DNA of 64,000 nt from Candidatus Dormiibacterota bacterium. Lineage in GTDB: Bacteria; Vulcanimicrobiota; Vulcanimicrobiia; Vulcanimicrobiales; Vulcanimicrobiaceae. The notes beneath the pieces were generated by a model. That model had not been told where the DNA came from, made no database searches, and saw nothing but the letters and a program-made list of their open reading frames with translations. The translations under genes were made by a program, and so were the position numbers. Position 1 is the stretch's first letter; each line of letters begins with the position of its first letter. Positions 22,927 through 34,056 of the stretch are shown piece by piece. The DNA lies in contig DATKQG010000035.1 of the NCBI GenBank assembly GCA_035532835.1, positions 1 through 64,000 on the forward strand. The letters run 5' to 3'.

Positions 22927-24777
22927 CTAGTTCTCGCTCGCCTGGAGATGGATCACGGTCTGCAGATTTTGGTCGGCAGTCGTGATGCCACGCGTATTCG
23001 CTTCGAATGCGCGCTGCGCGAGAATCAGGTTGGTGAATTCGGTCGAGAGGGAGACGTTCGATTGCTCGAGCGACCCCGCAACGATCGATCCGAATCGGCC
23101 CGCGCCGGCCGTCCCGACCTGTGCGAGCCCGGAGGCCGACGTGGACGAGAACTGGTTCCCGCCGATGCGCGAGAGGCCGTCCTCATTTTGGAAGGTGGCT
23201 ACCGCGACTTGCGCCAGTGCCCGGTTCTGGCCGTTGGTGAAGGCGCCGGTGACGGTACCGTCCTGGCCGACCGTGATGTTCGCGAGGGTGCCGGCCGGGT
23301 AGCCGTTCTGCGAAACCACGCTGGCCGTGTAGGCGCCCGCTAAGCTGGCATCGCCGGAGTAGTCGAGCCCGATCGGGCCGGGCGTCGGTGCCGCTCCGCC
23401 CGCGGTCGGGGCATTGGAGTTGTTGCCGGCGCTGGGTCCCCATTGGGTCACGTTGATCTGGTTGCCTTGAGCGATCGCCGGCAGGCCGCCGTTTCCGGTA
23501 TGGAGATACGCGGTCGCGTTGGTATCGAGCTGGTATCCGGGGACGCCGCTCTCGATGGCCGAGGAGTTGATGAACTGCCCGTTCTGGTCGAAATACGCGT
23601 ACCCGATGGTCCCCGACGAGCCGGTGCCGTACGTCGGAGCCGTGACGGCGCCGCCCGCGCCGACCGTTCCGGGGGTCGCGATGGTCGAGAACTGGGTGCC
23701 GTCGGCAAAGCTGACGCTCACCTGCCAGCGCGTGGCCGGAACCACAGCCGTTCCGTTCTCTACCTGTACCGAGCTGGGAAGGCCGTTCGTCGCCGCAGTG
23801 ACGGTGACGGTTTGCGTGTTGGTTCCGGGCATGGGACTAGCGAGCGTAAACGTCGCGCCGCCCATGGTGACCGTCTGGCCGGCGGCAACGGTCTGGGAAT
23901 TCCCAAGCGTATCGCTCACGAGTGCAGACGTTCCGGCTGCGTTTGAGACGATCTTAATGGTGTCGTTTTGGCTAGCCGCTAGGTTGACCGTCGGAGCGCC
24001 CGTGGTATTGGGGACGCCGGCCGAAGCTACGCTAGCCGGGGTTGCGCCCGCAACGTCCGGGGTGTAAGTGATCGTGGCTTGGTGCGCGTTGCCGAGCGAA
24101 TCGTAAACCGTAGTCGAGATCGACTTCGGCGTGCCGCTGGTAACGGTCGCTCCGACGTTATAGAGGAACTGCTGCGACCACTGCGTCTGGTCGAGATTCC
24201 CGCCCATCGCCATGTCGAAGACCTGGTCGTTCGAGCTGGGTCCAACCTTGGTGCCCGAGCCCGTCGCCGTGGCCTGCTCTTGCAAGCCGAGCGGGATCGT
24301 GACGTTGCCGGGGCTGCCGGTCTGCGAGATCTGCCCGTTCGTGCCGGTCATGTAGCCTTGCACGGCCAGACCCGAGGCGGGATCGTACAAGAGCCCGTTG
24401 GAGTTGAGCGAGAACGCGCCGTCGCGGGTGTAGGTCGGCGCCGAAGTGCCGTTGGTGTTGCGCAGGATGAAGAATCCGTCGCCGTTGATCGCGAGATCGG
24501 TATTGACGCCGGTCGTTTCGAGGCCGCCCTGACCGAACTGCGTGTCGATCGAGTTGACCTTGACGCCCAAGCCCTGGTCTTGCGGGTTGATGCCGCCGCT
24601 GGTCGCGGTCGGCCCCGACGGGTAGCCGGATTGCTGATAGAACATGTCGGCGAACGTCATCCGCTGGCCTTTGAAGCCGGTGGTTGCCGTATTCGCGATG
24701 TTGTTCGAGATCATATCGATCCAGCTCTGGTATGCGTTCAAGCCGGTGATGCCGGTGAACATTGAATCGAATGCCAT
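22927..24777 (-). CDS. flgE: Flagellar hook protein FlgE
   Basis: A 616-residue hook protein. The N-terminal rod/hook signature is MFTGITGLNAYQSWIDMISNNIANTATTGFKG, shown here only in part to mark the class. The C-terminus has EFTNLILAQRAFEANTRGI and ends QTVIHLQASEN. The centre is Ser/Thr/Gly-rich and variable, with FlgE D1/D2-type blocks such as TTVYDSLGNAHQATITYT. The start ATG at 24777 follows a structured 89-base leader. It is the last hook gene before the terminator at 22857-22884. Confidence 0.95.
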   Translation of the reverse strand: MAFDSMFTGITGLNAYQSWIDMISNNIANTATTGFKGQRMTFADMFYQQSGYPSGPTATSGGINPQDQGLGVKVNSIDTQFGQGGLETTGVNTDLAINGDGFFILRNTNGTSAPTYTRDGAFSLNSNGLLYDPASGLAVQGYMTGTNGQISQTGSPGNVTIPLGLQEQATATGSGTKVGPSSNDQVFDMAMGGNLDQTQWSQQFLYNVGATVTSGTPKSISTTVYDSLGNAHQATITYTPDVAGATPASVASAGVPNTTGAPTVNLAASQNDTIKIVSNAAGTSALVSDTLGNSQTVAAGQTVTMGGATFTLASPMPGTNTQTVTVTAATNGLPSSVQVENGTAVVPATRWQVSVSFADGTQFSTIATPGTVGAGGAVTAPTYGTGSSGTIGYAYFDQNGQFINSSAIESGVPGYQLDTNATAYLHTGNGGLPAIAQGNQINVTQWGPSAGNNSNAPTAGGAAPTPGPIGLDYSGDASLAGAYTASVVSQNGYPAGTLANITVGQDGTVTGAFTNGQNRALAQVAVATFQNEDGLSRIGGNQFSSTSASGLAQVGTAGAGRFGSIVAGSLEQSNVSLSTEFTNLILAQRAFEANTRGITTADQNLQTVIHLQASEN

Positions 24778-24800
24778 GGAATCTAACCTCTAGCATGGAT

Positions 24801-24858
24801 CCGCGTTACCTCTTTCGATCGGTAACACGGCTGAGGCCCCGCAAGCGGTCCGCCTCAG
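24801..24858 (-). promoter_or_regulatory. Two adjacent stem-loops in the flgE leader
   Basis: In the 89 bases between the upstream gene's stop (24867) and flgE (24777) two hairpins abut. One pairs CTGAGGC (24831-24837) with GCCTCAG (24852-24858). The other pairs 24801-24810 with 24821-24830 over 10 bp with one G-U. Together they fill most of the leader. I know no RNA class that matches. Confidence 0.55.
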
Positions 24859-24866
24859 ATAGTGCG

Positions 24867-25274
24867 TTAAATGATTGCCGCGGAGTCGATATTGGTGAAC
24901 ACGTTCTCTTTCATCGATTCCGCATCGACGGCGGTAATGACGGTGCGATTCTTGATGCTTACCACCATCGCGGTATCGCGCATGATGAAAAGCGAGTTTT
25001 TCGCACCTTTCGCCGCAGCTTTGTCCGCCATCGCGTTCATCTTGGCCACGTCGTCGTTCGAGAGGCTGATGTTGCGCGATTGCAAGCGCGCGATGGCGTG
25101 CGCCGAGAACTTGAGCGGCTCGCTCGTCGAAGACGAGGACGACGCGCGCTCGAGCGCCGAGCGAAAGCTCTCCGAGCTCGTTGGCGGGATCTGGACCGGT
25201 TGCCCGACCGGGCGCGGCCCGGGTCCGGGAATAATCGCGGACGATTGAACGCGATTGATGTCGTTCGAATCCAC
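24867..25274 (-). CDS. TIGR02530-type flagellar operon protein
   Basis: A 135-residue protein. The C-terminal 80 residues match the conserved block of the TIGR02530 flagellar family: LKFSAHAIARLQSRNIS, DKAAAKGAKNSLFIMRDTAMVVS and KNRTVITAVD, ending FTNIDSA. The N-terminal 50 residues are Pro/Ser-rich. Members sit between flgD and flgE in Gram-positive-type clusters and may assist hook assembly; the function is not defined. It is 3 bp downstream of flgD. Confidence 0.88.
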   Translation of the reverse strand: MDSNDINRVQSSAIIPGPGPRPVGQPVQIPPTSSESFRSALERASSSSSTSEPLKFSAHAIARLQSRNISLSNDDVAKMNAMADKAAAKGAKNSLFIMRDTAMVVSIKNRTVITAVDAESMKENVFTNIDSAAII

Positions 25275-25277
25275 GAT

Positions 25278-25748
25278 TTAGCTACCGATGCCGACGATGT
25301 CCGAGATCGAGAACAGCAGCGGGTTGCCGTTGTTATCGGTCAACGCGGTGCCGCTCGAGTTCGTCATCGTGAAGTAGGGCGTGCCGTTCTGCACGGTGAT
25401 CGACGAAATCGTACCGGTGGCGGTCGAGGAATTGCCGGTCGTTGCGTTGGTCCCGGTGTTCACCGTTGCGGTCTTACCAACGAGCGATGCAGCCTGCATC
25501 ACGCCGAAGTTGGACTGGAACGATTGGAACGACGAGCTCAACTGCTGCTGGTATTGCAACTGCGAAAATTGTGCGAGTTGCGTCACCGATTGGGTGGGGT
25601 CTTGGGGCTGCGTCGGGTCTTGATTCTGCAGCTCCGTGGTGAGTAGCGTCAGGAACGCATTCGGACCAAGCGTAGAACTCGGCGGCGTTGTCGTCGGCTG
25701 ATTCACGTTGATCAGTTGGTTGATTCCGGACGTAGTGGTTAGGGACAT
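25278..25748 (-). CDS. flgD: Hook capping protein FlgD
   Basis: A 156-residue protein. The conserved N-terminal region is FLTLLTTELQNQDPTQPQDP and TQLAQFSQLQ. A short FlgD beta domain follows with SLVGKTATVN. FlgD caps the growing hook and is exported in the hook phase. It ends without the long tudor/FnIII region of enteric FlgD. Confidence 0.92.
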   Translation of the reverse strand: MSLTTTSGINQLINVNQPTTTPPSSTLGPNAFLTLLTTELQNQDPTQPQDPTQSVTQLAQFSQLQYQQQLSSSFQSFQSNFGVMQAASLVGKTATVNTGTNATTGNSSTATGTISSITVQNGTPYFTMTNSSGTALTDNNGNPLLFSISDIVGIGS

Positions 25749-25757
25749 ATCGTCCTC

Positions 25758-27410
25758 CTAGACGAGATAGTTGAAGAGTTCGAGGGTCGATCCGTTGACG
25801 ATCGAGGGCGACGAACTCGGGCCGGTTGCCGCGATCGCTTCGGGCGATCCCGGTAGTTCGTGGATGACGTAGTGTCGGCCGAAGCCGGAGGCACGGTCTT
25901 TGTTGCCGCCGTTACCGGCATCGCCCCCCGAAACGTCGACCGAGAAACCCGAGAGGGTCAGGCCGGCTTCATTCAAGGAACGCGCGAGTTGTTGGTGGCC
26001 GTTAACCAGCGCGCTTTGCACGGTGCTGTTCTGCGCTACGATACTGGCGTTGACCGAAGATCCCGCGATCGTGAGCTTCATCGAGACCTCCCCGAGATTT
26101 TCGGGGAACAATCTCAGCCGAATCTCCGAGGTCCCGTTGGAGAGGCTGCGCATCGCCATGCCTTTGACGACCTGCTCCACGATCGCCGTTGGATCGGGTA
26201 GCGCGGGCGTTGCGGGCATCGCCGCTTGTTGCGCTTGCGTCTGCATCGCCACGGTCGGAAGCGCACCGAGCGCAAGGCTCGGCTGATCCGTCGTGGAGCG
26301 GGCAGATGCGGTACGCGAAGTGTCGCGGCCCGTGCCGAAGCCCGAACCGGTCCACGTGGAGGTTTGCGCATCGGATGACGATCCGGACGCGGGCACGCCC
26401 ACCGTCGTTGCTAACGCCGCCGCAAAGCGGGCGGCGAGCATGGACGGGGTTGAGAGCGTTCCGTCGCCACGCGTAGCGGCGGCGGTTGCCTGCGAAGTGG
26501 CCTCCGAGGCTGCAGCCGCAATCGCCGGAGCATTCAACTGCGCGTCGACGCTCGAAGCGCGCACGATCATGCGCGCCAGAAGGTCGGGTGCAGCCGTTTG
26601 CCCGTTGGCCGGCGCCGGGGTTGACGTAGCGACGGATGATATCGCCGTATCGGCGCCGTGCGCCGGTACGGAGGGTACGAGCGTCGCCGCGTTTTGCGCG
26701 GTCTGCGGAGAAGACGAAACAGGCGGAGACAGCGATGCCGTCACCGTTGCGAGGAGCGATTGCGCGAGGCTTGCGGCGTCAAACGCGAAGTTTGACGTTC
26801 GCTGTGTGTCGTGCTGGGCCGGGGTTTCTTTCACCGAAGTGGTGTCCAAGATTGATCCCGAGATGTCGCTCTGCTGCCCTGCTTGTCCCTGCGCTACCCC
26901 CGCAACTCCGCTCAGCCATTGCTGCAACTGCGCTACGAGGGTCGCCGCTTGTTCGGCGGCGGTTCCAGGTGGAGCATGTGCGGGTGGAGAGAGCGCGTTC
27001 GTGAGGGATTGCAAGAGCGAGCTATCGATCTGACCCGATACCGAAGCCATCCCTTGCGGCAATGCTCGATGCAACGCTGCGGAGATGATCGACGAGAGGC
27101 GGGCAATGATCGACGAGAGTGGGACTCCACTTTGCAGCAAACCCGTCACCTGTGAGACCACTTGCGAGGTTGCACCGCCGCTCGAAGTTCCAGCGAGGTC
27201 ATTCTTCGATGCGACCGGTTGCGGCGTCGCGCCGCGCGCTAAGCCGGGTAGGCCGAGCGATGCAAAGATCGATGCGAAGGCGTTCGGTGCCGTAGCAACC
27301 GTCGTGCCCCGATCGGTCGGGCTTTGCATGGAGGTGACCGGCGATTTGAAGCCCGGAGCGCCGCCATGCGCTACCGGTAAAATCCCGATAAAAGGACTGA
27401 TTGATGCCAT
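25758..27410 (-). CDS. fliK: Hook-length control protein FliK
   Basis: A 550-residue protein from the ATG at 27410, which has a strong AGGAGGTG upstream. In-frame sequence extends to 27458 but lacks such support. The long N-terminal and central part is low-complexity Ala/Ser/Thr. The C-terminal switch domain has EIRLRLFPENLGEVSMKLTI and LARSLNEAGLTLSGFSVDV. FliK measures the hook and triggers the FlhB switch. It follows aroF by 63 bp. A second FliK-like protein is at 45790-47628. Confidence 0.88.
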   Translation of the reverse strand: MASISPFIGILPVAHGGAPGFKSPVTSMQSPTDRGTTVATAPNAFASIFASLGLPGLARGATPQPVASKNDLAGTSSGGATSQVVSQVTGLLQSGVPLSSIIARLSSIISAALHRALPQGMASVSGQIDSSLLQSLTNALSPPAHAPPGTAAEQAATLVAQLQQWLSGVAGVAQGQAGQQSDISGSILDTTSVKETPAQHDTQRTSNFAFDAASLAQSLLATVTASLSPPVSSSPQTAQNAATLVPSVPAHGADTAISSVATSTPAPANGQTAAPDLLARMIVRASSVDAQLNAPAIAAAASEATSQATAAATRGDGTLSTPSMLAARFAAALATTVGVPASGSSSDAQTSTWTGSGFGTGRDTSRTASARSTTDQPSLALGALPTVAMQTQAQQAAMPATPALPDPTAIVEQVVKGMAMRSLSNGTSEIRLRLFPENLGEVSMKLTIAGSSVNASIVAQNSTVQSALVNGHQQLARSLNEAGLTLSGFSVDVSGGDAGNGGNKDRASGFGRHYVIHELPGSPEAIAATGPSSSPSIVNGSTLELFNYLV

Positions 27411-27473
27411 ATTCCATTCACCTCCTTTCGCACCAATTCGATACGAAGGCCCACGCATGGACCCTCGCTAATT

Positions 27474-28283
27474 TCATCGGCTCGGCGAGGCGGCGACCTT
27501 AGGGGCAGGCGCTACCCGGGCCATCAGTCCGGCGAAGGCACCCAAGTCGAGTGCCTGTTCTGCGTCCGACCGCGCGCGGGCCGGGTCCGGATGGACCTCC
27601 ACCATCGCACCGTCCAAACCCGCCGCGGCGGACGCTGCGACCAGCGGCGCAATCAAGCTGCGCCGTCCGGTCGCATGGCTGGGGTCGACTATCACGGGCA
27701 AGTGCGTTAGCTCCTTGAGCCGCAGCGCCCCAGCCAAATCGAAGAGGTTGCGGGTCTGCGGATCGAATCCGCGGACGCCGCGTTCGCATAAAACCACCCG
27801 CTCGTTGCCCTCGACCAAGAGGTACTCGGCGGCGTACAGGACCTCGTCCAACGTCGCGGCCGGGCCGCGCTTGAGCAGGATCGGCTTCCCGGTTCGGGCG
27901 GCGGCCTGCAGCAACGAGTAGTTCTGCATGTTCCGCGCACCGATCTGAATCATCGATACGTGCGAGGAAAGCAGGCCGAGTTGCGATTCGGCCATCGCTT
28001 CCACGACCGTCGGCATCCGATGCTTTTCGGCGACGCGCGCGATCAGCTCGACCCCGGCTTCACCCAAGCCTTGGAATGAGTACGGCGACGTCCGCGGCTT
28101 GAAAGCGCCGCCGCGAAGCATGTGGGCGCCGCAGGACGCAACGCCGCGCGTGACCGCCTCCATCTGGAACTCGTCCTCGACGGCGCACGGGCCGGCGATA
28201 ACGACGAAGCCCTCACCGAAACGCACCCCGTCCACGTCGACGATCGACCCTTCACGCTCTCCCCTGCTCGCCAATTGATACAC
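27474..28283 (-). CDS. aroF: 3-deoxy-7-phosphoheptulonate (DAHP) synthase
   Basis: A 269-residue enzyme of the AroF/KDO8PS-like class. Motifs are VVIAGPCAVED, MLRGGAFKPRTSPYSFQG, IQIGARNMQNYSLL, LLKRGPAATLDEVLYAAEYL and VIVDPSHATGRR. It condenses phosphoenolpyruvate and erythrose 4-phosphate, the first step of aromatic amino acid synthesis. The start is the GTG at 28283 with AGGAG upstream. No regulatory domain is fused. Its leader carries a Trp-rich mini-ORF and an intrinsic terminator, so expression is probably set by tryptophan attenuation. The next gene is fliK. Confidence 0.93.
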   Translation of the reverse strand: MYQLASRGEREGSIVDVDGVRFGEGFVVIAGPCAVEDEFQMEAVTRGVASCGAHMLRGGAFKPRTSPYSFQGLGEAGVELIARVAEKHRMPTVVEAMAESQLGLLSSHVSMIQIGARNMQNYSLLQAAARTGKPILLKRGPAATLDEVLYAAEYLLVEGNERVVLCERGVRGFDPQTRNLFDLAGALRLKELTHLPVIVDPSHATGRRSLIAPLVAASAAAGLDGAMVEVHPDPARARSDAEQALDLGAFAGLMARVAPAPKVAASPSR

Positions 28284-28308
28284 GGAACACTACTCCTAAC
28301 TCGACGCA

Positions 28309-28344
28309 TAAAAAACGAGGCCGCCCCGGTTGGGGCGGCCTCGT
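28309..28344 (-). terminator. Transcription attenuator terminator ahead of aroF
   Basis: On the minus strand a perfect 13-bp G-C-rich stem (28315-28344, 4-base loop) is followed by a run of six T. It lies 25 bases after the stop of the Trp-rich leader ORF and 31 bases before the aroF start codon. This is the geometry of a classical attenuator. Confidence 0.88.
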
Positions 28345-28369
28345 CAACGATGGTGAACCAGCTTCTAGT

Positions 28370-28459
28370 TCATTCGCTCCACGACAATAGCACGCGCGCC
28401 TCACCGGCAATTTCTGCGGTCAGGTGCCACCACCAACGAGCGGTCTGCGTGGTTGTCAT
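28370..28459 (-). CDS. Trp leader peptide controlling aroF
   Basis: A 29-codon ORF starting ATG at 28459 and reading MTTTQTARWWWHLTAE at its start, with three consecutive TGG codons at positions 9-11. A GTG at 28477 in the same frame overlaps the trpG stop as GTGA and would give 35 residues. It is followed by the terminator at 28309-28344. Ribosome stalling at the Trp codons when charged tRNA-Trp is scarce should prevent the terminator, as in other trp leaders. The alternative antiterminator pairing was not worked out. Confidence 0.82.
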   Translation of the reverse strand: MTTTQTARWWWHLTAEIAGEARVLLSWSE

Positions 28460-28473
28460 TAACGCGAAGTCTA

Positions 28474-29076
28474 TCACGGTGCCGCCGTAGCCGTCAATCG
28501 CGCGAGCCGCAAAAAATTGCGAATCAACGCTTCGCCGTGCTCGCTCAGCACCGACTCCGGGTGGAATTGCACCGCGTGCACCGGCAACGCGCGATGGGCG
28601 ATCCCCTGAATCACGCCGTCTTCGCTGCGGGCCGTAACCAGCAACGCCGAAGGGATCGTGGCCGGGTCCAATGCGAGCGAATGATAGCGCGTCGCCGTAA
28701 ACGGCGAGGGCAGGCCGCTAAAGACGCCCGAAGCGTCGTGCGAAATGGCGGAGGTCTTCCCATGCATTTGGCTGGGCGCGTGCGTTACGGTTGCGCCCAG
28801 CGCTTCCCCGATCGCCTGCAATCCCAGGCAGACGCCGAACGTCGGCATCGAACGCGCGATCGCCGCTCGCAGCAGCGCCATCATCTGCGGCTTCTGCGAC
28901 GGATTACCGGGCCCCGGGCCGATCGCCAGCGCATCGTAGCGATCGAGCAACGCGGCTTCAAGCACCGAATCGTCGTTCAGCACCACGTCCGGCGCACAAC
29001 CCGCCGCCGCAAACAAATGCACGACGTTGTACGCAAACGAATCGTAATTATCAACGAACAGAACGCGCACATTCAC
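28474..29076 (-). CDS. trpG: Anthranilate synthase glutamine amidotransferase subunit
   Basis: A 200-residue class I amidotransferase. The N-terminus is VLFVDNYDSFAYNVVHLF. The oxyanion segment is AIGPGPGNP. The nucleophile lies in FGVCLGLQAIGE (Cys near residue 84), and the His/Glu pair in QFHPESVLSEHG. It supplies ammonia to TrpE and may also serve PabB. The start is a GTG at 29076 with GGGAGG upstream; a second GTG two codons later is possible. A 170-bp inverted-repeat element separates it from trpE. Confidence 0.92.
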   Translation of the reverse strand: MNVRVLFVDNYDSFAYNVVHLFAAAGCAPDVVLNDDSVLEAALLDRYDALAIGPGPGNPSQKPQMMALLRAAIARSMPTFGVCLGLQAIGEALGATVTHAPSQMHGKTSAISHDASGVFSGLPSPFTATRYHSLALDPATIPSALLVTARSEDGVIQGIAHRALPVHAVQFHPESVLSEHGEALIRNFLRLARLTATAAP

Positions 29077-29098
29077 CTCCCATTCCCGAGCGTGCGGC

Positions 29099-29268
29099 TA
29101 CCTGTTGGCCGCATGCCCTACGTCCGTTGGGGGACCGTTCGTCAGCGCGCATCCTGCGCGCTTCCTACTCGTACGTTTTTGCGCAACGGCCAAAGGAAGT
29201 CGACATCCTGTCGATTGCGCAAAAATCGCACGTCCCCCAACGAACGTAGGGCATGCGGCCAACAGGTA
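29099..29268. repeat. 170-bp palindromic element between trpE and trpG
   Basis: Outer arms 29099-29135 and 29232-29268 are 37 bases each and pair with one mismatch. Inside are a hairpin at 29144-29162 (7-bp stem) and another arm pair, TTTTTGCGCAA (29176-29186) with TTGCGCAAAAA (29215-29225), which encloses TCGACA/TGTCGA (29200-29214). The whole can fold into a branched cruciform. It starts 8 bases after the trpE stop. It resembles a non-autonomous element (MITE) or a complex REP unit. I see no clear target duplication, and no second copy was noticed in the window. Confidence 0.8.
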
Positions 29269-29275
29269 CAATGGG

Positions 29276-30652
29276 TCACAATCCCAATACCTCGCGCGCG
29301 ATGCGCGTCTTCTGTAGCACTTCTTCGTACTCCGATTGCGGGTCGCTATCGGCGACGATGCCCGCGGAGGCTTGCCAATACACGCGTCTATCGTGCGCGT
29401 GCAAGCTGCGCAGCGTGATGCATGAATCGAAGTCTCCGCCGAAGGACCAGCGGCCGATGCTTCCCGCGTAGAAACCACGCGAGACCGGTTCGAATTCGTC
29501 GATGAGTTGCATCGCGCGCACTTTGGGCGTTCCTGTGACCGTCCCCGCGGGGAAGCCGGCTCGGAAGAGATCGAGGCCGTCGCGGCCGTCGCGTAGCGTT
29601 CCCACCACGTCGGAAACGATGTGCATCACGTGGCTATAGCGCTCGATTTGCAAGAGTTCGTCCACGGCGACGCTGCCGTATTCGCAAACCGCGCCCAAAT
29701 CGTTGCGACCGAGATCGACCAGCATCACGTGCTCGGCGCGTTCCTTTTCGTTCTGCAGCAACTCGCCGGCGATCCGTTCGTCTTCTGCTTCATTCGCGCC
29801 GCGCGAGCGGGTGCCGGCGAGCGGGCGAATGCGCGCGCGGCGCCCTTCAAGACGCACCAAGAACTCCGGCGAGGCGCCAAGCAATTGCCCGAACGGCGCG
29901 TCCACGTAGAACATGTAGGGAGAGGGATTTCTTCGCCGCAGCGCGCGGTAGAGATCGAACGCGTCGCCCTCTAGATCGACGCCGAAGCGGATGCCGATTT
30001 GGAGTTGATAGACGTCGCCGTCGTAGATGTGCTGTTTGATCCGCGCGACGCGACTCAGGTAGGCATCGCGATCGAGCGACGACCACACGGGGCCGATCGC
30101 TCGTACGGGCGCGGCAAGGACCGGTCGCGCGGCCAGCAGACGCTCGATATACGCATCGATACGTGCGTCGACGGATCGCTCGTCCTCCCCGCAGGCCCAG
30201 ATCGTTAACGTGTGCGTGAAGTGGTCGAAGATGAGCCAGCTCGACGGAATCGTCACATAGGCGGCGGGCATGGGCGGCTCGGCGGCGTGCCCGGGGTTCA
30301 TCCGCGCGGACGGCCGAGCGGCGTCGTAGGCAAATGCGAGCAGTGCACCGCCGAGTTCCGGGCGATCGCCTGCGATCCGATAGCCACGCACCATCGCGCG
30401 AATGCGCTCGTACATGTCGGGGGTGGCCTCGAACGATTCGCTGTGCAGGTAATCCAGGCCGATGAACGAGTAGCGCGAGATGCGGCCGCCGTGCTCGACG
30501 CTTTCGAGCAAACACGCGTTGCCCGGCGTTGCCAGCGCGCGATAGGCGCCGATCGGCGTGAGGACGTCGGACCCGATGGTGCGGGCCCGGGATACGAGAA
30601 GGCCGCCCGGTTGCGGGCGGCCTTCTACGGATATTTCTCCGAACGAACGCAT
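29276..30652 (-). CDS. trpE: Anthranilate synthase component I
   Basis: A 458-residue chorismate-binding enzyme. The N-terminal Trp-binding motif LLES is present (CLLESVEHGGRISRYSFIG), which favours TrpE over PabB. The catalytic domain has PLAGTRSRG, LVDLGRNDLG, FPAGTVTGTPKVRAMQ and YWQASAGIVADSD. It makes anthranilate from chorismate with TrpG. The start is tentative: the ATG at 30652 lies 4 bases after the stop of a Trp-rich leader ORF, and a strong hairpin then falls inside codons 9-19. No ATG, GTG or TTG lies between that hairpin and the conserved region. Confidence 0.9.
   Translation of the reverse strand: MRSFGEISVEGRPQPGGLLVSRARTIGSDVLTPIGAYRALATPGNACLLESVEHGGRISRYSFIGLDYLHSESFEATPDMYERIRAMVRGYRIAGDRPELGGALLAFAYDAARPSARMNPGHAAEPPMPAAYVTIPSSWLIFDHFTHTLTIWACGEDERSVDARIDAYIERLLAARPVLAAPVRAIGPVWSSLDRDAYLSRVARIKQHIYDGDVYQLQIGIRFGVDLEGDAFDLYRALRRRNPSPYMFYVDAPFGQLLGASPEFLVRLEGRRARIRPLAGTRSRGANEAEDERIAGELLQNEKERAEHVMLVDLGRNDLGAVCEYGSVAVDELLQIERYSHVMHIVSDVVGTLRDGRDGLDLFRAGFPAGTVTGTPKVRAMQLIDEFEPVSRGFYAGSIGRWSFGGDFDSCITLRSLHAHDRRVYWQASAGIVADSDPQSEYEEVLQKTRIAREVLGL
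30597..30626 (-). promoter_or_regulatory. Hairpin at the 5' end of trpE
   Basis: A perfect 13-bp stem (30597-30609 with 30614-30626, 4-base loop) close in sequence to the attenuator stem ahead of aroF. It is followed by CGTATCC and not by a T run, so termination would be weak. It lies within the trpE frame if the ATG at 30652 is used. It may be an attenuator or a translational block. Confidence 0.55.
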
Positions 30653-30656
30653 GCCG

Positions 30657-30716
30657 CTACCGCTGGACTCCCAGGAGCCAATGCCAACGATACCATGCTG
30701 CGAGGCGGACGATCAT
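30657..30716 (-). CDS. Putative Trp leader peptide for trpE
   Basis: A 19-codon ORF beginning MIVRLAAWYRWHWLL, with Trp codons at positions 8, 11 and 13. It begins 9 bases after the stop of the MotE-like gene and ends 4 bases before the trpE ATG. Three Trp codons in six, placed directly before trpE, are unlikely by chance and suggest attenuation or translational coupling. Confidence 0.65.
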   Translation of the reverse strand: MIVRLAAWYRWHWLLGVQR

Positions 30717-30725
30717 GCGCGCTTC

Positions 30726-31394
30726 TTACCGTCGCAGCTCGGGGTGTTCCTGCGTCAGCCGCGCGGCGACCGCTGCCGGCAACGCATCCAGAATCGCGCC
30801 CGCGGCATCCGGTGACATGAGCGACATCACGCGCGCGACGTACGCAGAGGGCAATTTTTGCACGACTTTCGCGGCGTTCTGAGGTTCCATGTTCGCCCAA
30901 TACTGGGCGGTGCGCCGCATATCCGGGGTAGCCCCGGCCGAAAGATCGCCGGTCGTGGGGCCGGCTTGCGCGCTCGTGCCGGTTCCGGCGGCGGCCGACC
31001 CGGCCGCGATCGGCGAGCCGGACGACGCGGAAGGCTTGGCGGCTTTCGCATTCGCAGCTTGCGATTCGAATTGCGTTATCTGCGCCTGAAGTCTCGAAAT
31101 TTGCCGGTCTTTGGACTTCGAAGCATTTTGCGCGGCGGTAACCTGATGTTGCAATTGGAGGATCTGGTGCTTCAAATCGGTCATCGCTTGATTTTGCGCG
31201 GCGAAATGGAATGGTCCGGCGATCGTGTCGGCCATCGGAGCGCTCGCGCGCCAAACCGGGGCAAGCGGACCGTTGACGATCTCGTTTCGCGACGGCTGCC
31301 AGACGAAGGCGAATGCGACCAGTGCGATGGCGATCAGCGGCAACAGCACGCGACTCCACGGAAAGGTCTTACGCCGTTGGCGCGTTACGATCAC
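30726..31394 (-). CDS. MotE-like flagellar protein (MgtE_N-type)
   Basis: A 222-residue protein. One N-terminal span (VLLPLIAIALVAFAFVW) precedes a coiled coil (about 75-120, MTDLKHQILQLQHQV) and a Ser/Ala/Gly linker. The C-terminal MgtE-N-like domain has TAQYWANMEPQNAAKVVQKL and LMSPDAAGAILDALP. MotE-type proteins stabilise stator or export components. It overlaps fliJ by ATGA. It is the last flagellar gene before the trp genes. Confidence 0.75.
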   Translation of the reverse strand: MIVTRQRRKTFPWSRVLLPLIAIALVAFAFVWQPSRNEIVNGPLAPVWRASAPMADTIAGPFHFAAQNQAMTDLKHQILQLQHQVTAAQNASKSKDRQISRLQAQITQFESQAANAKAAKPSASSGSPIAAGSAAAGTGTSAQAGPTTGDLSAGATPDMRRTAQYWANMEPQNAAKVVQKLPSAYVARVMSLMSPDAAGAILDALPAAVAARLTQEHPELRR

Positions 31395-31855
31395 GATGCT
31401 CCTCCCATCTGTTGCATGCTCCGGCCGAACCGGCGAGCGTTTCCGTCGTCGAGTTCGTTCTGCTCGATGCGCAACTCTTCGTTCGTAAATGCTTCGCGGC
31501 GACGCTCTTTGAGCTTCTCCACGATCTTGCGTTCTTTGCTCGATGCCAAGAGTTCCTGGCGCGAGCGGTCGAGCTCGATCCTACGCTCGGCGACCACGCG
31601 GATCTGCGCCACGATGGCTCGATCGAGAAATTGCACGTGCGCGTAATGGAGCCGTAACTGCTCGAGGTCGTAGCGTTTATGCTCGGTGCGCAAGCGCGCC
31701 GAACTATCGCGAAACTCGCGGTCGAGCCGGTCGAGATCGCGCTGGGCTTCATCGTGCGCGATCTGACGCAGCGCCACGGCTTGCTGCTTTTGGTTTTCGA
31801 TGCGGCCGCGGTGCTCGAGGAGCGGTTGCAGCGTAAAGCGGAAGCGGCGTGCCAT
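31391..31855 (-). CDS. fliJ: Flagellar export chaperone FliJ
   Basis: A 154-residue, almost wholly coiled-coil protein (FTLQPLLEHRGRIENQKQQ at the start, high Arg/Glu/Gln). FliJ binds the FliI ATPase ring as a central stalk and escorts chaperones. It is coupled to fliI by TAATG and to the MotE-like gene by ATGA. Sequence alone is weakly diagnostic; position makes it firm. Confidence 0.88.
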   Translation of the reverse strand: MARRFRFTLQPLLEHRGRIENQKQQAVALRQIAHDEAQRDLDRLDREFRDSSARLRTEHKRYDLEQLRLHYAHVQFLDRAIVAQIRVVAERRIELDRSRQELLASSKERKIVEKLKERRREAFTNEELRIEQNELDDGNARRFGRSMQQMGGAS

Positions 31856-33168
31856 TATGCGACGCTCATGAGCGACTGCACCGCCTGTTCGTACCCGGTC
31901 GTTTCGTAGATGCCTTGCCGCAGAAAGTGTCGGATCGATTCGATTTTCGAGAGCGCTAGATCGACGCGGGGATTGCTGCCCTGCACGTAGGCGCCGATGT
32001 TGATGAGATCTTCGGCATCGCGATAGGTCGCAAGCACGTCGCGAATCGCCGATGCCGCCGAGTAGTGGTTTTCATCGACGACGTCGGGCATCACGCGGCT
32101 GACGCTCTGCAGGACGTCGATGGCGGGATAATGATTCGCCGAGGCGAGTTGGCGCGAAAGCACGATGTGCCCGTCGAGAATCGAGCGCACCGCATCGGCA
32201 ACCGGCTCGTTCATGTCGTCTCCGTCCACCAAAACCGAGAAGAGTCCCGTAATCGTCCCGCGTTGGGACGTCCCGGCTCGCTCGAGCAGTTTTGGGAGCA
32301 TGGCGAAGACCGATGGCGTGTAGCCGCGAGTCGTCGTCGGCTCGCCGATCGCTAGGCCCACCTCGCGCTGGGCCATGGCAAACCGCGTGACCGAGTCCAT
32401 CATGAACATCACGTCCAACCCTTGGTCGCGAAAGTACTCGGCGATCGTCATTGCCACGGATGCGGCCTTGATGCGGACCAGAGCCGGCTGATCGCTGGTG
32501 GAGACGACGACGACGCTGCGGCGCAGGCCCTCTTCGCCGAGATCGCGCTCGATGAAGTCGCGTACTTCTTTACCGCGCTCGCCGACCAAGGCGATCACGT
32601 TGACGTCGGCCGACGTGTTACGCGCGATCATCCCCAAAATCGTCGATTTGCCGACGCCGGAACCGGCGAACACGCCGACGCGCTGCCCCTTACCGCAGGT
32701 CAACATTCCGTCGATCGCCCGGATACCCAGCGCCAGCGGCTCGGTTACCCGTTGGCGCGTGAGCGCCCCGGGCGGCGCCGAGTTCACTTCGGCGCGATGA
32801 TCGGCCACGATCGATCCCTTACCGTCCATCGGGCGGCCCAGGCCGTCGAGCACGCGGCCCAGCAGCCGATCGGTGACTCCGATTTCGAGCGGCTTTCCAT
32901 GCGCGATCACGTCGCTGCCGGCGCCGATGCCCTTGAGCTCGCCAAGCGGCATAATCAAGACCTTGCTGTCGCGAAATCCGACGACTTCGGCAAGCACCGG
33001 CTCGGCGGTACGCTTGTACGAAATCGAGCACGTTTCGCCGATCGCCATATTCGGACCGTGGCTCTCGATCACCACACCGATGACCTGGCGAACTTTGCCG
33101 TACTGCGAAACGAGATCCGCGTTGCGTAAGTTGGCGATATAGCGGTCGGCGTTAAACGTCATCGACAC
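31855..33168 (-). CDS. fliI: Flagellar export ATPase FliI
   Basis: A 437-residue F1-beta-like ATPase. Walker A is VFAGSGVGKSTILGMIARN, Walker B lies in DVMFMMDSVTRFAMAQREVGLA, and the family segment GEPTTTRGYTPSVFAMLPKLLERAG is present. It energises unloading of export substrates. Nine bases separate it from fliH. Confidence 0.96.
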   Translation of the reverse strand: MSMTFNADRYIANLRNADLVSQYGKVRQVIGVVIESHGPNMAIGETCSISYKRTAEPVLAEVVGFRDSKVLIMPLGELKGIGAGSDVIAHGKPLEIGVTDRLLGRVLDGLGRPMDGKGSIVADHRAEVNSAPPGALTRQRVTEPLALGIRAIDGMLTCGKGQRVGVFAGSGVGKSTILGMIARNTSADVNVIALVGERGKEVRDFIERDLGEEGLRRSVVVVSTSDQPALVRIKAASVAMTIAEYFRDQGLDVMFMMDSVTRFAMAQREVGLAIGEPTTTRGYTPSVFAMLPKLLERAGTSQRGTITGLFSVLVDGDDMNEPVADAVRSILDGHIVLSRQLASANHYPAIDVLQSVSRVMPDVVDENHYSAASAIRDVLATYRDAEDLINIGAYVQGSNPRVDLALSKIESIRHFLRQGIYETTGYEQAVQSLMSVA

Positions 33169-33177
33169 GGCGGCCGC

Positions 33178-34056
33178 CTAGCTCGCCTGGGCCGGCGGAC
33201 GGAGCAGCTCCGTGCCGGATTGGCCGAGTTCGATGGCCTCATCGTTCTGCAGCGCCTTGCGCGCTTCGCGCAACTGCGTGGAAATCTTGGCATCGATCGT
33301 GCCGGCCTCGGTCTCGAGGACGACGCCGCCGCGATCCACGCGCTGATCCTCGACGATCCGCAAGTGCTCGACGTCGTGCGACGCCACGATCGCATCGCGA
33401 TGCTGGCGGATCATGTCGAGATCTATCGGATTGACGCGGAGCGTTACGACCTCGCGCGACACTAAGCGCGTGAGCGCATTGCGGACGTTTTCGACCACGA
33501 CGCTAGGATCCAACGCGATGTGTTGATGCACGACGCTTTCGGCGATCGCCATCGCCAGACGTACCAGCTCCGGCTCCGCGCCCTCGATAACCGTGTGGCG
33601 TTCGTTACGCGCCGAGTCAACGAGCTCGCGCAACGTCGCGATCAGTGAGGCCGTCTCGGCTTCGATCTGCTGGCGACCCTCGGCGAATCCCTGTTCGCGA
33701 GCGCTCGCCTTGGCCTGGCTCTCGATCTCGAGGACGCGCTCGTCGGCTCGCGCGATGAGCGCGCGTCCGCGTTCGGCTGCGTCCGCAAGCAGCGTCCGCG
33801 CATCCTCCGCGGCCCGATCGATCAATGCGTCCGCTTCGGCGGCAACCGCGTCCCAATCGATCTGCGGTACCGGCGTTTCTTCAACGATCGGTTCGGGAAC
33901 CGGCTGCTCGAGCACGTCCGCATCGCCACGGAACGGCGCCGCGAAGCGGGCGTCGAGTTCTCCCTGCCGCTCGGGCTCGGCGGCACGATCGAAATGCGGG
34001 ATCGGGACGACGTACGAACCGTCGATAAAGCGCGCTTCGCGAACGACTTTACCCAT
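33178..34056 (-). CDS. fliH: Flagellar export regulator FliH
   Basis: A 292-residue protein with a long Ala/Glu/Arg-rich coiled coil (about 70-150) and a C-terminal V-ATPase-E-like domain (LVRLAMAIAESVVHQHIALDPSVV). FliH binds FliI and links it to the C-ring. Its ATG shares one base with the fliG stop (TAATG). Confidence 0.9.
   Translation of the reverse strand: MGKVVREARFIDGSYVVPIPHFDRAAEPERQGELDARFAAPFRGDADVLEQPVPEPIVEETPVPQIDWDAVAAEADALIDRAAEDARTLLADAAERGRALIARADERVLEIESQAKASAREQGFAEGRQQIEAETASLIATLRELVDSARNERHTVIEGAEPELVRLAMAIAESVVHQHIALDPSVVVENVRNALTRLVSREVVTLRVNPIDLDMIRQHRDAIVASHDVEHLRIVEDQRVDRGGVVLETEAGTIDAKISTQLREARKALQNDEAIELGQSGTELLRPPAQAS

Follow-up and report, generated by a model that had tools for sequence, protein, structure and literature searches.

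Among the described systems closest to the one reported here, the aroR-aroF attenuator of Corynebacterium glutamicum places Phe-Tyr-Phe codons before a DAHP synthase gene (PMC11802643, PMC4046766), and classical attenuators with trp, ilv, leu, and cys leaders are known from Actinobacteria (PMC1262725). Leaderless variants have also been described, namely trpL of Sinorhizobium meliloti and leaders in Streptomyces (PMC7298713, PMC8079986). We analyzed a window of 64,000 nucleotides (the whole stretch of DNA under study; contig DATKQG010000035.1) from a Candidatus Dormiibacterota bacterium of the family Vulcanimicrobiaceae, in which the DAHP synthase gene aroF follows a short open reading frame with three consecutive Trp codons.

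The genes concerned lie on the minus strand in the order fliH, fliI, fliJ, a gene for an MgtE_N-domain protein, trpE, trpG, aroF, fliK, flgD, a small flagellar gene, and flgE, with trpE, trpG, and aroF embedded in a flagellar operon (fliH-fliI-fliJ ... fliK-flgD-flgE; 22927-34056). By NCBIfam, trpE (29276-30652) and trpG (28474-29076; stop codon at 28476-28474) matched TrpE and TrpG, and aroF (27474-28283; GTG start at 28283) encodes a DAHP synthase of the Bacillus subtilis type (TIGR01361), with AGGAG at 28297-28293. The fliK gene (25758-27458) begins 15 bp past aroF, an adjacency common to many relatives. Between trpE and trpG (29080-29265) lies a repeat of about 115 bp with inverted repeats of about 35 bp at its flanks; more than 20 similar copies occur in the genome, and it looks like a small noncoding mobile element.

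Inspection of the sequence bore out the first-pass annotation in its description and coordinates of a WWW mini-ORF, a 13-bp stem, and T6 ahead of aroF. The leader ORF, MTTTQTARWWWHLTAEIAGEARVLLSWSE, occupies 28370-28459 (minus strand) between trpG and aroF, with its ATG at 28459-28457, a TGA stop at 28372-28370, and the three Trp codons at 28427-28435. An intrinsic terminator (28310-28344) lies between this ORF and aroF and consists of ACGAGGCCGCCCC, an AACC loop, and GGGGCGGCCTCGT (28344-28315), followed by T6 (28315-28310); its stem has 13 perfect pairs counting the first T, or 14 with a G-T pair. The sequence TGGTGGTGG occurs only four times on both strands of the 64 kb. In the sensor run Trp stands alone, without the Phe/Tyr codons of the C. 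glutamicum aroR type. A possible second Trp leader, MIVRLAAWYRWHWLLGVQR, was noted before trpE (30657-30716, minus strand); it is weak, its hairpin (30626-30597) has no T run and overlaps the trpE start, and it is present in both members of the genus and absent from the other trpEG-aroF operons examined.

A pattern scan placed a promoter within the end of trpG, with a -35 element TTGACG (28492-28497) and an extended -10 element, TGATAGACT (28468-28476), whose TGA is the trpG stop codon, which thereby supplies the TG. This promoter, TTGACG-18-TAGACT (28497-28468, minus strand), is the sole promoter-like site in 1.4 kb, where shuffling gave an expectation of 0.3. Nearly all ortholog leaders are likewise preceded by TTGAC(A/G), a spacer of 16-18 nt, usually TG-N, and TAnnnT; TTGAC is kept at this place in nearly all of them, and the TAnnnT core is invariant. 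Transcription usually starts about 7 nt after the -10 element. The leader ATG lies 8 nt past the -10 hexamer in the window and 7-10 nt after it in the orthologs, and a 5' untranslated region of 0-3 nt, and therefore a leaderless transcript, is predicted; the aroF leader mRNA is thus probably leaderless. The first-pass annotation had suggested that the leader may begin at a GTG overlapping the trpG stop, but the sequence there, GTGATAGACT, is the extended -10 element, and the GTG is out of frame or absent in relatives; the start is very probably the ATG at 28459. With its own promoter in the trpG end, the attenuator, which that annotation placed inside an operon, would open a new transcription unit there, one that belongs to aroF.

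Conservation was followed in the genome's family (99 genomes, mostly MAGs with possibly incomplete contigs). Of 149 genomes of the phylum that were compared, 30 had the window's aroF subtype at E <= 1e-90, and every one of these belongs to this family. Wherever the upstream DNA is complete (29 genomes), and in one named contig (L007) as well, there is an aromatic leader (WWW, WWCW, YWW, or YWYW(F/Y)) and a terminator, the latter 20-55 nt before aroF. The N-termini and flanks of the leader peptides diverge while the W/Y run stays, the Tyr codons vary synonymously between TAT and TAC, and some relatives carry a YWYWF sensor before aroF. A covariance model built only from aroF leaders (R1) found aroF leaders in 32 genomes of 13 genera with E below 1e-17 (rough E-values, most matches being training sequences), and it matched the window leader at E 5.8e-24 in its own genome, the window itself being a training sequence. 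The presence of a leader in every complete ortholog, together with this match, was the main and decisive argument against a chance origin. Since the leader is kept with or without trpEG upstream and with or without fliK downstream, it travels with aroF. Directly before more divergent aroF copies, no aromatic leaders were seen in 20 genomes, bar one weak case; the reason is that in several of those inspected aroF forms the C-terminal portion of a fusion with PheA, and in these fusions a Phe/Tyr leader is located further upstream. A T-box suspected from a short motif before aroF in L009 had no Rfam match.

These data also bear on a rival reading, in which the hairpin is a plain terminator of the trpEG transcript, aroF is expressed from its own promoter, and the WWW ORF is incidental. 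A strong terminator directly after trpG and the presence of a promoter fit this; the promoter, however, lies upstream of the terminator, and transcripts starting there would be terminated before aroF unless antitermination intervenes. Moreover, the aromatic ORF is found in every complete ortholog, even where trpEG is missing upstream (L101-L109), and we regard this reading as very improbable.

An attenuator would require a fold that competes with the terminator, and such an antiterminator, between the end of the leader ORF and the terminator 5' arm and loop, was predicted in every member. In the window its 5' strand is CCGGTGAGGCG (region 2; 28400-28410, minus strand), a motif kept in the aroF leaders and identified by pairing computations, and its 3' strand is CCGCCCCAACC (region 3; 28328-28338), comprising the upper terminator 5' arm and loop, with pairing that continues into the CGG of the 3' arm. 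Across the aroF leaders the motif CCGGUGAG lies 17-24 nt past the sensor codons and pairs with the upper 5' arm, the loop, and the first 3'-arm bases of the terminator. When the RNA was treated as covered up to 9 nt past the sensor codons, all 29 leaders formed the antiterminator before the terminator 3' arm was complete; with coverage up to 9 nt past the stop codon, none of the 29 did. All 27 distinct segments formed it, with a mean z of -2.85 against dinucleotide shuffles. Such evidence consists of RNA folding energies, and kinetics lie outside these models. For the window, a pairing between the Trp codons themselves and the terminator arm could be drawn by eye, but it was dropped, as YWYW leaders have no counterpart to it.

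Covariation pointed the same way. The pair CCGGUGAGG/CCUCACCGG changes in a compensating manner to CUGGUGAGG/CCUCACCAG in one leader (L105) and to CCGGUAAG/CUUACCGG in three others (L007, L096, L099), and a further compensated pair, CCGGUGAGA/UCUCACCGG, occurs in L110. For 45 leaders of all gene classes, the two strands paired better with their own partners than with swapped ones (-20.4 versus -17.7 kcal/mol; z -7.3 by permutation, kinship ignored), and the difference persisted with one leader per gene class (p = 0.002). RNAalifold on a MAFFT alignment recovered only the outer five pairs because the length of the inner loop varies, and single-sequence folds and cross-pairing tests were therefore used. 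As judged by fold computation and covariation, antiterminator and terminator are mutually exclusive, and the predicted arrangement of leader, antiterminator, and terminator is the classical 2:3/3:4 logic. In short leaders the stop codon lies inside CCGGUGAGGUAG, in two frames (CCG GTG AGG TAG; TGC CGG TGA), while in long leaders, the window's among them, the ORF runs past the motif and ends within that antiterminator's apical hairpin; in both cases the 5' strand of the antiterminator holds the stop codon. For the long-leader group to which the window belongs, 38 nt separate region 2 from the stop codon, and a ribosome at the stop would for this reason mask the inner hairpin and not region 2 itself.

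The DNA itself shows all the elements of an attenuator together with their conservation and the alternative folds, whereas the start site, translation, stalling, and termination are what we infer from them. Transcription would start from the trpG-end promoter, no more than a few bases from the leader ATG, and the leader would be translated in leaderless form. Under Trp-tRNA scarcity, the ribosome would stall at UGG-UGG-UGG, leaving the downstream strand CCGGUGAGGCG free to pair with the terminator 5' arm and loop, and the polymerase would read into aroF. When Trp-tRNA is plentiful, the ribosome would reach the leader stop, within the antiterminator, and disrupt that fold, and the terminator would form. 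We hold it highly probable that a ribosome-mediated attenuator of this kind ties aroF expression to charged tRNA-Trp and belongs, in this little-studied group, to a lineage-wide set in which one chassis carries exchanged sensor codons. The first-pass annotation had read the locus as a Trp attenuator and had named conserved leaders and alternative foldings as checks; WWW or other aromatic leaders are indeed kept before aroF in the orthologs and in the covariance-model matches, an antiterminator exists and is conserved by fold computation and covariation, and both results support that reading.

Although trained on aroF leaders alone, R1 also matched loci elsewhere in the family and in a neighboring family (f2), with other sensor codons, before proC, ilvE, pheA-aroF fusions, trpE, and ssuA; a broadened model (R2) added ilvB and cysH. 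Across these loci the sensor codons match the product of the downstream gene. The proC leaders carry Pro codons (MTYRASRPLPPPPHHEMPVR; in the window's own genome, on contig C9, MTRAFGPVPCPPSPHRRMPVR), and Pro-run leaders of leaderless type were seen at G000:C9:16848-16936 (L220) and at L164-L167, L170, L172, L174, L180, and L222-L225. Leaders with Ile/Leu/Val codons precede ilvE (MYRSRALLPVIILLSRFARSR) and ilvB (MLSTRHLLVVVLISRPVGIG) (L168, L171, L234), and leaders with Tyr/Phe/Trp codons precede PheA-AroF fusions of prephenate dehydratase and DAHP synthase (MLTDRSLAFAYYYYFCRPPGR, VKNVRAYAYWYSFSGLGGR) and pheA (MIVQRERFARFFFGRRPRTPVG) (L176, L177, L228, L230, L239, L182, L237). The trpE leader is MRLVLSWWWQVSVRSGR. 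Met/Cys codons were found before a sulfonate-binding protein gene (ssuA-like; MTCRPMAMCMAMCCTPRCR) and Cys codons before a PAPS reductase gene (cysH; MISLAVRACASCLRIDPDTA) (L178, L181, L229). The identities of proC, ilvE, the PheA-AroF fusion, the sulfonate-binding protein, and PAPS reductase come from NCBIfam and Pfam, and those of ilvB, pheA, and trpE from their translations. YYYYYY leaders precede a protein of about 250 amino acids (L175, L179, L231) that had no Pfam or NCBIfam match and by eye resembles TenA/PqqC-like proteins. Six R2 matches (L226, L227, L233, L235, L236, L238) looked spurious on inspection and were set aside.

Most of these leaders share the promoter-to-ATG spacing, a stop codon in a GCCGGUGAGGUAG-like sequence, and a complementary terminator; the cysH and YYYYYY leaders fit this core more loosely. 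A strict promoter-plus-motif pattern gave five matches in 12 genomes, all of them attenuators of this type, and none in reversed controls. R1 found proC at E 1.5e-10 and ilvE at 1.1e-7 without prior sight of either, which favors common descent of the set; convergence under the same pairing constraint could also have produced the likeness. On balance we lean toward a history in which duplication and recoding of a single ancestral leaderless attenuator took place in this Eremiobacterota lineage. Its fixed chassis would be the promoter, a short ORF, a stop in GCCGGUGAGGUAG-GCGCGC, and a complementary terminator, and exchangeable codons for Trp, mixed aromatics, Tyr, Pro, Ile/Leu/Val, and Met/Cys would stand before the matching genes, new specificity arising by codon change alone.

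The exchange of sensor codons with the downstream gene also speaks against control by a protein or a small-molecule riboswitch acting on the leader RNA, with the ORF secondary. The RNA near the stop codon is strongly conserved, as such a regulator would lead one to expect, but pairing with the terminator accounts for the conserved strand; Rfam, including Trp_leader and other known RNA families, gave no gathering-score match in the window and none that was credible at a relaxed threshold. This explanation seems to us very improbable. A further alternative is that the attenuator chiefly serves fliK-flgD-flgE, 15 bp past aroF, and links motility to Trp supply. The evidence for a flagellar coupling is gene order, in that aroF and fliK adjoin in the window and many relatives, yet the leader is likewise present at aroF loci for which no downstream fliK was found (L096-L100, L105, L110-L112), and the other members of the set precede amino acid genes. 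We regard a chiefly flagellar role as unlikely.

Beyond the phylum, a comparison of 80 DAHP synthase loci, mostly from other phyla, revealed an aromatic leader (FWYWYF) and a terminator before the gene in an Acidobacteria bin (L010), and also in two loci with acidobacterial names (L017, L039) and three from Calditrichota or related bins (L048, L050, L051). These leaders are Phe/Tyr-rich or mixed aromatic, the bins being named Calditrichota, Caldithrix, Bryobacter, Acidipila, and Acidiferrum; for L050 and L051, the stop codon of the leader apparently also lies in a strand complementary to the terminator. In Veronia nyctiphanis (L077:4475-5001), a Trp-operator-like sequence, a WWW leader (MLSVTVKTRNNTNWWWSSPLR), and a terminator precede a DAHP synthase gene, and this Trp attenuator is apparently independent in origin. 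As the out-of-phylum leader sequences look unrelated, DAHP synthase seems to have come under aromatic attenuation on repeated occasions.

The mechanism itself is classical attenuation and already known. With the trp attenuators of Escherichia coli (trpL), S. meliloti, and Streptomyces, the window element shares consecutive Trp codons and antiterminator/terminator alternatives; unlike trpL, it lies before aroF rather than trpE or trpS, its sequence is unrelated, and it has no Rfam match. The first-pass annotation had called attenuation by a WWW leader uncommon at an aroF-type gene. C. glutamicum aroR-aroF, likewise a leader peptide attenuator at a DAHP synthase gene, is a precedent, but it senses Phe, whereas the window leader is predicted to sense Trp, and we found no description of aroR-aroF as part of a set of shared sequence. 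The open-access literature yielded no report of a DAHP synthase gene preceded by Trp codons, of mixed aromatic sensors, or of a lineage-wide, codon-exchanged chassis, and as far as it shows these three are new; nor was an earlier account found of leader-peptide control in this phylum, into which the attenuator would bring it. Trp-codon attenuation would act at the entry enzyme of the aromatic pathway, with aroF appearing to be switched on only under Trp scarcity; in relatives the sensors shift to Tyr-Trp-Phe mixtures, and the leader thus shows which amino acids are monitored at the branch point. A homologous set would provide a natural series of codon-swapped attenuators in which to study the origin and re-targeting of such switches, and a template for amino acid sensors. 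Like the Actinobacterial attenuators, the set comprises several amino acid leaders in a lineage with cognate codon runs; there each gene has its own leader as described, whereas here a single promoter-stop-antiterminator chassis is common to the Trp, Phe/Tyr, Pro, Ile/Leu/Val, and Met/Cys leaders.
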